Position numbers and translations under genes: made by a program. Source: Alteriqipengyuania flavescens (GTDB lineage Bacteria; Pseudomonadota; Alphaproteobacteria; Sphingomonadales; Sphingomonadaceae). From it: a DNA stretch of 64,000 bases. The notes under the pieces were generated by a model. The model worked only from the letters and a program-made list of their open reading frames with translations, ran no database searches and had not been told where the DNA came from. Positions 25,402 through 29,865 of the stretch are shown here, in pieces (the stretch's first letter is position 1; the number at the start of each line of letters is the position of its first letter). The stretch lies in NCBI RefSeq assembly GCF_030406725.1, contig NZ_CP129107.1, positions 868,001 through 932,000 of the forward strand, given 5' to 3'.

Positions 25402-26148
25402 ATGAAAATCCTCGTCCCCGTCAAGCGGGTGATCGATTACAACGTGAAGCCGCGGGTCAAGGCCGACGGGTCCGGCGTCGACCTCGCCAACGTCAAGATG
25501 AGCATGAACCCGTTCGACGAAATCGCAGTCGAGGAAGCCATCCGCCTGAAAGAGGCCGGCAAGGCGGAAGAAATCGTCGCCGTGTCGATCGGCCCGGCCA
25601 AGGCGCAGGAAACGTTGCGAACCGCCCTTGCCATGGGTGCAGACCGCGCGATCCTCGTTGAAACCGATGACGAGGTCGAACCCCTCGCGGTCGCCAAGAT
25701 CCTGAAAGCCATCGCCGAAGACGAACAGCCCGGCCTCGTGATGCTGGGCAAGCAGTCGATTTCCGACGACAGCAACCAGACCGGCCAGATGCTCGCCGCG
25801 CTGATGGACCGGCCGCAGGGCACGTTCGCCAACACGGTCGAGGTCGACGGCGACTACGTTACCGTGAAGCGCGAGATCGACGGAGGCCTGGAAACCGTGA
25901 AGCTTTCGCTTCCCGCGATCGTCACCACCGACCTGCGCCTCAACGAGCCGCGCTATGCTTCGCTGCCGAACATCATGAAGGCGAAGAAGAAGCCGCTCGA
26001 CACCAAGACCCCGGCGGATTTCGGCGTCGACATCGCGCCGCGCCTGACCACGACCAACGTGTCGGAGCCGCCCGTGCGGCAGGCCGGCGAAAAGGTCGAA
26101 GACGTCGATGCGCTGGTCGCCAAGATGAAGGCCATGGGCATCGCCTAG
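25402..26148 (+). CDS. etfB: electron transfer flavoprotein beta subunit
   Basis: A 248-aa AMP-binding subunit of ETF, the carrier that takes electrons from acyl-CoA and other dehydrogenases to ETF-quinone oxidoreductase. It starts [16 protein letters not shown]. The family signature region [34 protein letters not shown] (in two parts) is present. AAGAAGGGA precedes the ATG. It precedes etfA with a 102-base gap that holds a palindromic repeat. The acyl-CoA dehydrogenase at 8942 is one possible donor. Confidence 0.96.
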
Positions 26149-26250: not shown

Positions 26251-27180
26251 ATGAAAACTCTCGTTTGGGTCGAACACGACAACAGCGAAATGAAGGACGC
26301 CACGCTGGCGACCGTCACCGCCGCATCGAAACTGGGCGACGTCGACCTCCTCGTCGCCGGATCGGGTTGTAGCGCCGTGGCTGACCAGGCCGCGAAGATC
26401 GCGGGCGTGGGCACAGTCCACCTCGCCGACGATGCCGCCTACGAACACGCGCTGGCAGAAAATGTCGCGCCGCTGGTCGCCAAGCTGATGGACGGCTTCG
26501 ACGCCTTCCTCGCGCCCGCCACCACCACCGGCAAGAACATCGCCCCGCGCGTCGCCGCCCTGCTCGACGTGATGCAGGTGTCGGACATCCTGTCGGTCGA
26601 AGGCGACAAGACCTTCACCCGGCCGATCTATGCCGGCAACGCCATCGCCACGGTGGAATCGAGCGACCCGAAGCTCGTCATCACCGTGCGCGGCACGGCC
26701 TTCGACAAGGCCGATGCGGAAGGCGGATCGGGCAGCGTCTCGGCGGTCGAGACCACCGGCGATGCCGGCCTGTCGAGCTTCGTCAGCGCGGAAATCGCCG
26801 AGAGTGAGCGCCCTGAACTGACCAGCGCCAAGGTCATCGTGTCCGGCGGCCGCGCGCTGAAGGATGCCGAAACGTTCGAGCAGATCATCACCCCGCTCGC
26901 CGACAAGCTCGGTGCGGGCATCGGCGCATCGCGCGCCGCGGTGGATGCAGGCTACGTGCCCAACGATTACCAGGTCGGCCAGACCGGCAAGATCGTGGCG
27001 CCCGAAGTCTACATCGCCGTCGGCATTTCCGGCGCGATCCAGCATCTGGCCGGCATGAAGGATTCCAAGACCATCATCGCCATCAACAAGGATGAAGACG
27101 CTCCGATCTTCCAGGTCGCCGACATCGGTCTCGTCGCCGATCTCTACAAGGCGGTGCCGGAACTGACCGAAAAGCTCTGA
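26251..27180 (+). CDS. etfA: electron transfer flavoprotein alpha subunit
   Basis: A 309-aa FAD-carrying subunit of ETF. The N-terminal domain starts [15 protein letters not shown]. The C-terminal FAD domain contains [23 protein letters not shown] and [21 protein letters not shown], all diagnostic. A normal AGAGGTAAG ribosome binding site lies just upstream, downstream of the repeat. A strong terminator follows, closing the transcription unit. Confidence 0.96.
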
Positions 27181-27202
27181 ACTACAACAGCTTGACGATT
27201 GA

Positions 27203-27243
27203 CCCCCCGGACCCGCCACTACTGCGGGGACCGGGGGTTTTTC
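27203..27243 (+). terminator. intrinsic terminator after etfA
   Basis: Arms CCCCCGGACCCGC and GCGGGGACCGGGGG pair around a short loop and are followed by TTTTT, 23 bases after the etfA stop. Confidence 0.88.
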
Positions 27244-27244
27244 T

Positions 27245-27322
27245 ATGCGCTCAATAATCTTTTTCACGTCCATCGCGCTCGCTGCGACGGCATTTCCTGC
27301 GCCCGCTTCAGCGCGGCGCTGA
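27245..27322 (+). pseudogene. signal-peptide-like mini-ORF, possible remnant of a small secreted protein
   Basis: ATG 27245 opens a 25-codon frame with a basic N-terminus, a hydrophobic core (IIFFTSIALAATAF) and an Ala-x-Ala cleavage-type end (PAPASA), then RR and a TGA. A shift into the neighbouring frame just after would add about 20 residues ending at 27390. It lies directly under the etfA terminator. It may be a decayed gene or chance; no ribosome binding site is convincing. Confidence 0.3.
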
Positions 27323-27478
27323 GAATAGTGCCTGCTGTGGACTTTAATGGGCGACCGTTCGACAACACCTACGTAAGCACTCTCACGTAGCGCGACGGCA
27401 ATCGCTAGCCTTCGATTCCCGCTCGTTAACCATACCGCGCTAACCCCGCCCCGACAGGGTTACGGGGGTTTCGCAACA

Positions 27479-28087
27479 ATGCGTCACGAAAAGATCGATG
27501 TAGAGGGTGCTACCGAGGTAAAGCGGTCGCGGCCGCAGGTGCTGGAGCGGGCGGAGGACCTGCTCGAAAAGACGCTGTTTGCCAGCCGCTGGCTGATGGC
27601 ACCGTTCTACTTGCTAATGATCGGCGCGCTCGGCATGCTGCTCGTCAAGTTCGCGCAGGAAAGCTGGCACATCGTCACCCATACGCTGTTCGTGAGCGAG
27701 GCCGATGCGGTGCTCGCCGTGCTCTAGCCGATCGACATCACGCTGACGGGCAACTTGCTGCTGATGGTGCTGTTCGCGGGTTACGAGAACTTCGTCTCCA
27801 AGATGGATGTCGCCGACCACGAAGACCGGCCCGACTGGATGGGCAAGGTCGATTTCTCCGGCCCCAAGCTGAAGCTGGTCGCTTCCATCGTCGCGATTTC
27901 GGGGATCAACCTGCTCAAGAACTTCATGGCGCTGGAGCCCGGCATCGTGAACGGCGAGAAGCAGGACCAGCTGTTCTGGCTCGTCACGATCCACATGGCC
28001 TTCGTCGGCAGCGGCGTGCTGCTTGCCTACATGGACAAGCTGACGATCAGCTCCAAGATGATCGAGAAGCAGACGAACAAGCTATAG
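27479..28087 (+). pseudogene. UPF0114 (YqhA) family membrane protein interrupted by an in-frame TAG
   Basis: Reading 27479-28087 in one frame gives 202 codons that match the UPF0114 family end to end: FASRWLMAPFYLLMIGALGM (helix 1), LTGNLLLMVLFAGYENFVS (helix 2 with the family's GYENFVS), AASIVAISGINLL-like helix 3 and a C-terminal helix ending LAYMDKLT. Codon 83 (27725-27727) is TAG, between helices 1 and 2, where E. coli YqhA has Ser. There is no frameshift and both sides are well conserved, so the lesion is recent, a sequencing error, or is read through. The function of the intact family is unknown. The 3' end overlaps the convergent acetyltransferase by six bases. Confidence 0.85.
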
Positions 28088-28615
28088 GGTGTCGGCGCGG
28101 GCTGCGCGGCGTTCGAACAGGTCGAGCGTGTCGCCGTCCTTTTCGATGGACCGCATAAGGGTGAAACCGAGCGTTTCGGCGAGTTTTACCGAGGCTGCAT
28201 TGCCGCGAGTGATCATGCACACGCTGCGGCGGCCGAACTCGGTATCGAACCACGCGTAGATCGCGCGCATCGCTTCCGATGCGAGGCCTTTCCCGCCCGC
28301 TTCGGGCCGCATGATCCAGCCGGCTTCCGGGCCGTCGTCGAAATCCTCCCCGATATCGCGGAAGGTGTGGAAGATGCCGGCCTGGCCGATGATCCGCCGC
28401 TCGCCCGCTTCACGCACCAGCAGCATGCCGTAACCGTGCAGCAGCCAGCTCCCGCCGTTCTTCTGGAAACGTTCGAAAGTGCGCGCAGGCTCGCTCGGCG
28501 GGCCGAGGTAGCGCGCGGTTTCCGGATGCGAGATGATTTCGTGAGTTTCGCGCCAGTCGCCGGCCTCGGGCAGCCATAGCTCCAGCCGCTCGGTCACAAG
28601 GAACGGCGCGCTCAC
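28082..28615 (-). CDS. GNAT family N-acetyltransferase (RimJ/RimL-like)
   Basis: A 177-aa acetyltransferase of the Acetyltransf_3 type: TERLELWLPEAGD at the N-terminus, GWIMRPEAGGKGLASEAM as the acetyl-CoA loop, and ITRGNAASVKLAETLGF at the C-terminus. Relatives acetylate ribosomal protein N-termini or small substrates. The start is a GTG overlapping the DUF445 stop as GTGA; an ATG-started longer frame would run antisense-like through the DUF445 gene and is rejected. Confidence 0.88.
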   Translation of the reverse strand: MSAPFLVTERLELWLPEAGDWRETHEIISHPETARYLGPPSEPARTFERFQKNGGSWLLHGYGMLLVREAGERRIIGQAGIFHTFRDIGEDFDDGPEAGWIMRPEAGGKGLASEAMRAIYAWFDTEFGRRSVCMITRGNAASVKLAETLGFTLMRSIEKDGDTLDLFERRAARADTL

Positions 28616-29865
28616 CACAGTTGCGTCAGCCCGTGTAGCGTCAGGCCAACGAGGCCGCCCACCAGCGTGCCGTTGATGCGGATGAACTGCAGGTCGCGCC
28701 CGACCGCGCCTTCCAGCCGGTCGGTCAGCGTGCGCGCATCCCAGCGGCGTACGGTTTCCGACACCAGCTGCACGATCTGGTCGCCGTGGCGGGTGGCGAC
28801 GCCCACGGCGGTGCGGCGGGCGAAACGGTTGATCTGCCACTGCAGGCGTTCGTCCTCGCGCAGGGCGTTGCCGAGATCGTCGAGGCTTTCGGCGAATTGC
28901 GCGCCGAGCGAGCTTTGCGGATCGCGCGCCCGCTTGATCAGGCTCTGGCGGATCCGCTCCCACACGCGCTGCCACCATTCCGCCACCGCCGGGTTGGCGA
29001 TCAGCTCGTTCTTCAGCTTCTCCACGCGGGCGCGGAAATCCTCGTCATGCTGCAAGTCGCGGGCGAGGGTTTCCAGCCCCTCTTCCAGCTTGTCGCGCAG
29101 CGGATGGTTGGGATCGACCAGCACTTCGGCCAGCAGCTTGTAAAGCCCGTCGAGCACGGAATTGGCCAGCCGCTCGTCCAGCCCGGTGAAGCGCAACAGC
29201 GCATTCGCCCGGTCGTGGATCATGTCGCGCACCATCGTCTCGTTGTCTTCCAGGACCAGCCCGGCCCAGCGGATGGTGCTGTCGACGAGCGGCAGGTGCT
29301 TGCGGTCGGCCATGGCGACTTCCATCATCCGCCCGAACAACGGCGCGACTTCGATCCGTTCGAGCTGGCTGGCGAGACCGGAGCGGACCTGCGTGCCGAG
29401 CCGTTCGGGATCGAGCGATTCGAGCAGTTCGGCGAACAGCTCGGTCGCGCCCGCACGGATGCGCGATGGTCCTTCCCGGCCCGGTTCGGACAGGAAATTG
29501 CCCGCCGCCCCGGCGAGGTTCATGTCCTTCATCCGCCGCGCCACGACCTGCGGGATGAGGAAATTCTCGCGCAGGAAGACCGCCATCGTGTCGGCGATGC
29601 GGTCCTTGTTCTCCGGGATGATCGCCGTGTGCGGAATCGGCAGGCCGAGCGGGCGGCGGAACAGCGCGGTGACCGCGAACCAGTCCGCCAGTCCGCCGAC
29701 AAGGCCGGCCTCGGCAAAGGCATGGACATAGCCCCATGCCCAGTGCGCGCCTTCGAACCGGCCGGAGACGAGGAAGACGGCGGCCATTACCACCAGCATG
29801 CCGGTGGCGGCGATCCGCATCCTTCGGGCGCGGTCCTGCAACAGGGGCGAAGCGGCGGCGGTCAT
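28612..29865 (-). CDS. DUF445 membrane protein (YjiN-like)
   Basis: A 417-aa protein with a transmembrane helix near the N-terminus (residues about 15-35), a long helical, charged middle, and a C-terminal hydrophobic end (GTLVGGLVGLTLHGLTQL). ADWFAVTALFRRPLGLPIPHTAIIP is the DUF445 signature. The function of the family is unknown. It lies 9 bases after the RND permease stop, so it probably belongs to the efflux transcript, with the acetyltransferase coupled downstream. Confidence 0.9.
   Translation of the reverse strand: MTAAASPLLQDRARRMRIAATGMLVVMAAVFLVSGRFEGAHWAWGYVHAFAEAGLVGGLADWFAVTALFRRPLGLPIPHTAIIPENKDRIADTMAVFLRENFLIPQVVARRMKDMNLAGAAGNFLSEPGREGPSRIRAGATELFAELLESLDPERLGTQVRSGLASQLERIEVAPLFGRMMEVAMADRKHLPLVDSTIRWAGLVLEDNETMVRDMIHDRANALLRFTGLDERLANSVLDGLYKLLAEVLVDPNHPLRDKLEEGLETLARDLQHDEDFRARVEKLKNELIANPAVAEWWQRVWERIRQSLIKRARDPQSSLGAQFAESLDDLGNALREDERLQWQINRFARRTAVGVATRHGDQIVQLVSETVRRWDARTLTDRLEGAVGRDLQFIRINGTLVGGLVGLTLHGLTQLW

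Follow-up and report, generated by a model that had tools for sequence, protein, structure and literature searches.

The UPF0114 (YqhA) gene analyzed here is, with high probability, an ordinary and fairly young unitary pseudogene of a common yet little-characterized bacterial inner-membrane protein, originating in a nonsense mutation at codon 83 of its frame. Support for this reading comes from the sense codon found at this position in all relatives' loci read, two further radical substitutions at near-invariant leucines (Leu84Pro and Leu129Pro), normal termination on TAG in an adjacent gene, the orthologous position of the gene, the presence of RF1 and the lack of any detected amber-reading tRNA. 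Against it stand a core that still looks constrained (pN/pS 0.13-0.27), mixed relative-rate tests and a single genome for the species and genus. A new mode of reading the code is not favored, an ordinary, recently lost gene being the most likely explanation, and both halves of the frame should be annotated as one pseudogene instead of two proteins.

A UPF0114 frame interrupted at codon 83

The window, a stretch of 64,000 nucleotides, spans positions 868001-932000 of a complete genome (one contig of 2,719,067 bases, 100% complete), which harbors one UPF0114 copy. Translation of the frame at 27479-28087 on the forward strand yielded 202 codons plus the final stop, running from M1 to L82, through TAG at codon 83, and from P84 to L202 before the final TAG, with no indels along its length. 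Each part matches PF03350 on its own (2.6e-7 over profile positions 1-50 for the 5' part; 8.5e-22 over positions 53-117 for the 3' part). When the TAG is read through, the frame matches both PF03350 (124.6 bits against a cut-off of 23.1) and TIGR00645 (174.1 bits against 144.4) over the whole model, and because these scores exceed the curated cut-offs of both families a chance frame is ruled out. The first-pass annotation, which had described one 202-codon UPF0114 frame with TAG at codon 83 and no indel, is borne out by these results. The whole helical membrane protein is hence not encoded by a single uninterrupted frame, the TAG breaking it at codon 83. The distal frame contains in-frame start candidates at 27755 (TTG), 27764 (ATG), 27767 (GTG) and 27803 (ATG), none of which is preceded by a clear Shine-Dalgarno sequence as judged by eye, in agreement with the earlier remark that this fragment lacks a good start.

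Table 1. Coordinates of the UPF0114 locus and adjacent features in the window
Feature	Position	Strand	Remarks
ETF-domain gene	25402..26148	+	ends on TAG where orthologues end
ETF alpha gene (FixB)	26251..27180	+	conserved upstream neighbor
Terminator-like stem-loop, then T run	27203..27245	+	fold of 27185-27250, z -3.06
Proximal UPF0114 part, 82 codons up to premature TAG	27479..27727	+	N-terminal tail, first membrane helix, loop
Premature TAG, codon 83	27725..27727	+	within second membrane helix; sense in 139/139 relatives' loci
Codon 84, Pro	27728..27730	+	relatives Leu (115) or Phe (4) in 119 distinct sequences
Distal UPF0114 frame, 119 sense codons and natural stop	27728..28087	+	without good start of its own
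Codon 129, Pro	27863..27865	+	relatives Leu (116) or Val (3) in 119 distinct sequences
Natural stop of frame, also TAG	28085..28087	+	frame open 163 codons further
GNAT acetyltransferase gene	28082..28624	-	convergent; ends on TAG; overlaps end of UPF0114 frame

The codon aligned with the premature TAG encodes Thr (53), Gly (46), Ser (25) or Ala (15) in relatives and is a stop in none of the 139 loci. These loci correspond to 123 distinct sequences, as some genes were fetched twice, and for the four distinct sequences with alignment gaps at codon 83 the codon was read directly in the locus, the gaps being most likely due to truncation of sequences whose hits start 5' of the true start codon. 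Serine occupies this position in the nearest orthologues, G331 and G284, as well as in L033 (Sphingomonas arenae), L034, L035 and G415, and most of the nearest Ser-carrying orthologues adjoin the same ETF genes. The nonsense mutation put forward in the first-pass annotation is therefore well supported by a sense codon in every locus and by Ser in the nearest orthologues. Within the family search tables an internal TAG occurs in the window only, with base-by-base reading covering the fetched loci. G269 and G230 each show one internal TGA, in both cases where the aligned protein ends. Stops in eight other aligned loci were discarded because none falls within the domain: they either precede the true start or coincide with the normal terminus. 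When the window was scanned by codon usage for same-frame interruptions, 26 candidates emerged, most of them normal gene termini or antisense mirror frames, and the scan provides no count of broken genes.

The TAG is not the only lesion, and the earlier view that the gene is otherwise intact did not hold: the near-invariant Leu84, directly after the TAG, and Leu129 are both replaced by Pro, a residue found at neither column in the 119 distinct relatives that are ungapped at these sites. Across the 33 columns conserved in at least 95% of sequences the window departs at three, including both Leu-to-Pro changes, while the mean among relatives is 0.46 and 9 of the 123 depart at three or more; the third departing column (position 46) is common to the window, G331 and G284. 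At the 19 columns with 99% conservation the window shows no departures. Residues 26-154 include six sites at which the window is alone in departing from a residue common to G331, G284, L034 and L035 (M72V, T73S, the stop, L84P, L129P and A154P). The equivalent counts of lone differences, mostly conservative, are 1 for G331, 3 for G284, 8 for L034 and 5 for L035.

An AlphaFold model of the G331 orthologue (62 aligned sequences, pLDDT 90) predicts helices at residues 3-22, 25-55, 61-93, 113-137 and 146-178. Codons 83 and 84 correspond to G331 residues 70 and 71, both within the modeled helix 61-93. Codon 129 corresponds to residue 116; helix 113-137 is still in its first turn at this point, and a proline may be milder in effect. 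According to the model, the premature TAG falls inside the second membrane helix and not between helices 1 and 2, as had been proposed. Neither sequence matches (up to E 1) nor fold matches (below E 1.3) to solved structures were found, so structure provides no indication of function.

Gene neighborhood, patchy presence and selection

The ETF-domain gene at the upstream end of the neighborhood is, by its position, presumably ETF beta (FixA). The order ETF beta, ETF alpha, UPF0114, DUF445 and AcrB-type pump is common to the window and G284, and L034 keeps the gene order over the part covered and likewise has a GNAT gene at the corresponding position. The ETF side of the neighborhood is also kept in G331 and S. 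arenae, and in L035 UPF0114 lies on the opposite side of the ETF genes. The neighborhood shared with G284 and L034 indicates that the UPF0114 gene of the window is most likely a vertical orthologue in its original place, and the terminator-like hairpin 3' of ETF alpha suggests that it probably had its own promoter. The spacer between ETF alpha and UPF0114 (27181-27478) is about 298 bases long in the window, whereas the spacers of G284 and L034 measure roughly 60-110 bases. The longer spacer contains an ORF of 25 codons (27245-27322) with a signal-peptide-like start and no Pfam match, perhaps a remnant. At the other end of the gene, a CTATAG palindrome (28082-28087) lets both convergent genes, the UPF0114 frame and GNAT, finish with a Leu codon and a TAG stop. 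The nearest relatives differ between genes, being L035 and G284 for ETF-beta (91.5 and 89% identity), L034 for ETF-alpha (85%) and G331 for UPF0114 (77%), and the histories of these genes may accordingly differ.

UPF0114 is patchily distributed, occurring in 50 of the 397 sampled genomes of the sphingomonad family, to which the bacterium belongs, and in 26 of the 96 genera, with 4 of 61 genomes in the genus of G331 and 1 of 40 in that of G284. In the S. arenae orthologue (L033:2765-3327; sequence and coordinates identify its genome with G404/L192) the frame changes at about window residue 51-53, a break of the gene that is independent of the TAG in the window. Furthermore, G113 (L186:797-1072) has kept no more than residues 100-189, the distal portion, of a less closely related copy (37% identical), with nearly 800 bases present upstream. 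A truncated match in G096 is uninformative, since it sits at a contig end. Patchy presence and the independent breakage in S. arenae together point to a gene that the family loses easily, which bears on the role of YqhA.

Over residues 26-154, pN/pS between the window and its relatives is 0.13 (G331), 0.20 (G284), 0.27 (L034) and 0.18 (L035), against 0.10-0.20 among these four orthologues themselves. The terminal branch of the window is the longest in its clade of six (0.42 vs 0.14-0.28). Tajima-type counts gave an excess of changes in the window against G331 (20 vs 5, χ2 9.0, or 19 vs 4, χ2 9.8), 20 vs 18 (χ2 0.11) or, with another outgroup, 18 vs 10 (χ2 2.29) against G284, 19 vs 18 or 14 vs 11 against L035, and 9 vs 19 (χ2 3.57) against L034. 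For the ETF neighbors, with G284 as outgroup, the window is slower than G331 (12 vs 34 and 21 vs 44). From these sequence comparisons, we read the UPF0114 gene as one that would have been constrained for most of its branch and may now be starting to decay, with a possible acceleration. The notion of a very recent mutation finds partial backing in the seemingly constrained core (pN/pS 0.13 against G331) and sits less well with the longest end branch of the clade.

The sequence of events envisaged for the pseudogene starts with a nonsense substitution that would have turned codon 83 into TAG. Translation would end at residue 82, when nine residues of the second membrane helix have been made, and the stub released by RF1 would be without most of the protein. 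The stub is probably non-functional and selection on the gene would have been relaxed, a loss presumably tolerated because the gene appears dispensable in the family.

Decoding of TAG and alternative readings

RF1 is encoded in the genome (487.8 bits against a cut-off of 423.25). The TAG of the ETF-beta gene (25402-26148) lies within 0-3 codons of the end of all five orthologues, so TAG terminates translation in this genome; it is also the stop codon of the GNAT and AcrB-type genes. As the natural stop of the UPF0114 frame is TAG as well, efficient reading of this codon would append 163 residues. A search for an amber suppressor tRNA, recommended in the first-pass annotation, revealed no CTA anticodon among the 40 tRNA genes found in the genome, all of which were read by ARAGORN, and a search for PylS was likewise negative. 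The tRNA-Ile(GAT) and tRNA-Ala(TGC) genes, usually located in the rRNA operon, were not among these 40, and no 16S rRNA was detected in the genome by a search that also failed in 5 of 14 control genomes, so the operon may have been missed or withheld; a suppressor tRNA could conceivably lie within it, outside the 40 genes read. The predicted fold of the 90 bases that follow the TAG does not stand out from that of shuffled sequences (z 0.20), and the stretch including the TAG gave z 1.42.

These observations weigh against the proposal that the TAG is recoded, a fraction of ribosomes decoding it and producing full-length UPF0114 at a lower dose, which we regard as highly unlikely. The distal frame is open to its natural stop with low pN/pS, and the premature TAG is followed by C, which constitutes a leaky stop context in bacteria. 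A survey, in the portion available, makes the case that bacteria tolerate many in-frame stops (PMC7918605). However, the stop is not conserved among orthologues (0/139 loci), none of the tests made on tRNAs, PylS, stop conservation and downstream RNA structure lends support to the programmed readthrough suggested earlier, the same codon terminates both the UPF0114 frame and the ETF-beta gene, and Leu84Pro would probably harm a full-length product. Very improbable, too, is the related idea of a tolerated leaky stop, an intermediate stage in this lineage in which a small full-length dose would delay the loss of a dispensable membrane protein.

A sequencing or assembly error, under which the true genome would carry a sense codon 83 and a functional gene, is unlikely, even if a single affected codon, the lack of indels and the constrained core are compatible with it. 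Leu84Pro and Leu129Pro would have to be errors as well, or be tolerated, and with three damaging changes an error is not an easy explanation. Moreover, the assembly is complete in one contig and none of the 11 neighboring genes, checked against orthologues, contains an internal stop. The error raised in the first-pass annotation is conceivable, but it must also account for the other two changes. A split gene, in which either the 82-residue stub would be functional or translation of a distal protein would start within the frame, is the hardest to credit. The in-frame TTG at 27755 and ATG at 27764, as well as the distal-only copy in G113, speak for it, yet visual inspection shows no clear Shine-Dalgarno sequence at the start candidates, a protein begun internally would lose part of the second membrane helix, and none of the close relatives read has the two halves as separate genes with individual starts.

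Relation to known systems

No established function for UPF0114/YqhA was found in the literature searched under both names. The portions of the reports available mention a missense change in E. coli evolved for inhibitor tolerance (PMC10991953), speculate about a chloride channel (PMC3246468) and note expression that responds to leucine on a plasmid of Buchnera (PMC3229713). In-frame stops are common across bacteria and mostly short-lived on an evolutionary scale, according to the portion of the survey available (PMC7918605), and this short persistence fits the early decay proposed for the window. As in the cases described there, the in-frame TAG is flanked by regions of low dN/dS; the readthrough argument in that part of the survey, in contrast, relies on stops common to orthologues of at least two species, and the stop in the window occurs in no orthologue read.

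With respect to the UPF0114/YqhA family (PF03350, TIGR00645), the read-through frame matches over its whole length and conserves stretches such as GYENFVSK and HEDRPDWMGKVDF, but it differs in the premature TAG in helix 2 and in Pro at two near-invariant Leu positions. The pseudogene reading places the locus alongside the unitary nonsense pseudogenes of bacteria, with which it shares a single copy in a conserved location, a stop absent from the relatives read, further damage and a presumably dispensable gene. It differs from them in its early stage, with one inactivating stop, no indel and a protein still 75-77% identical to the G331 orthologue.
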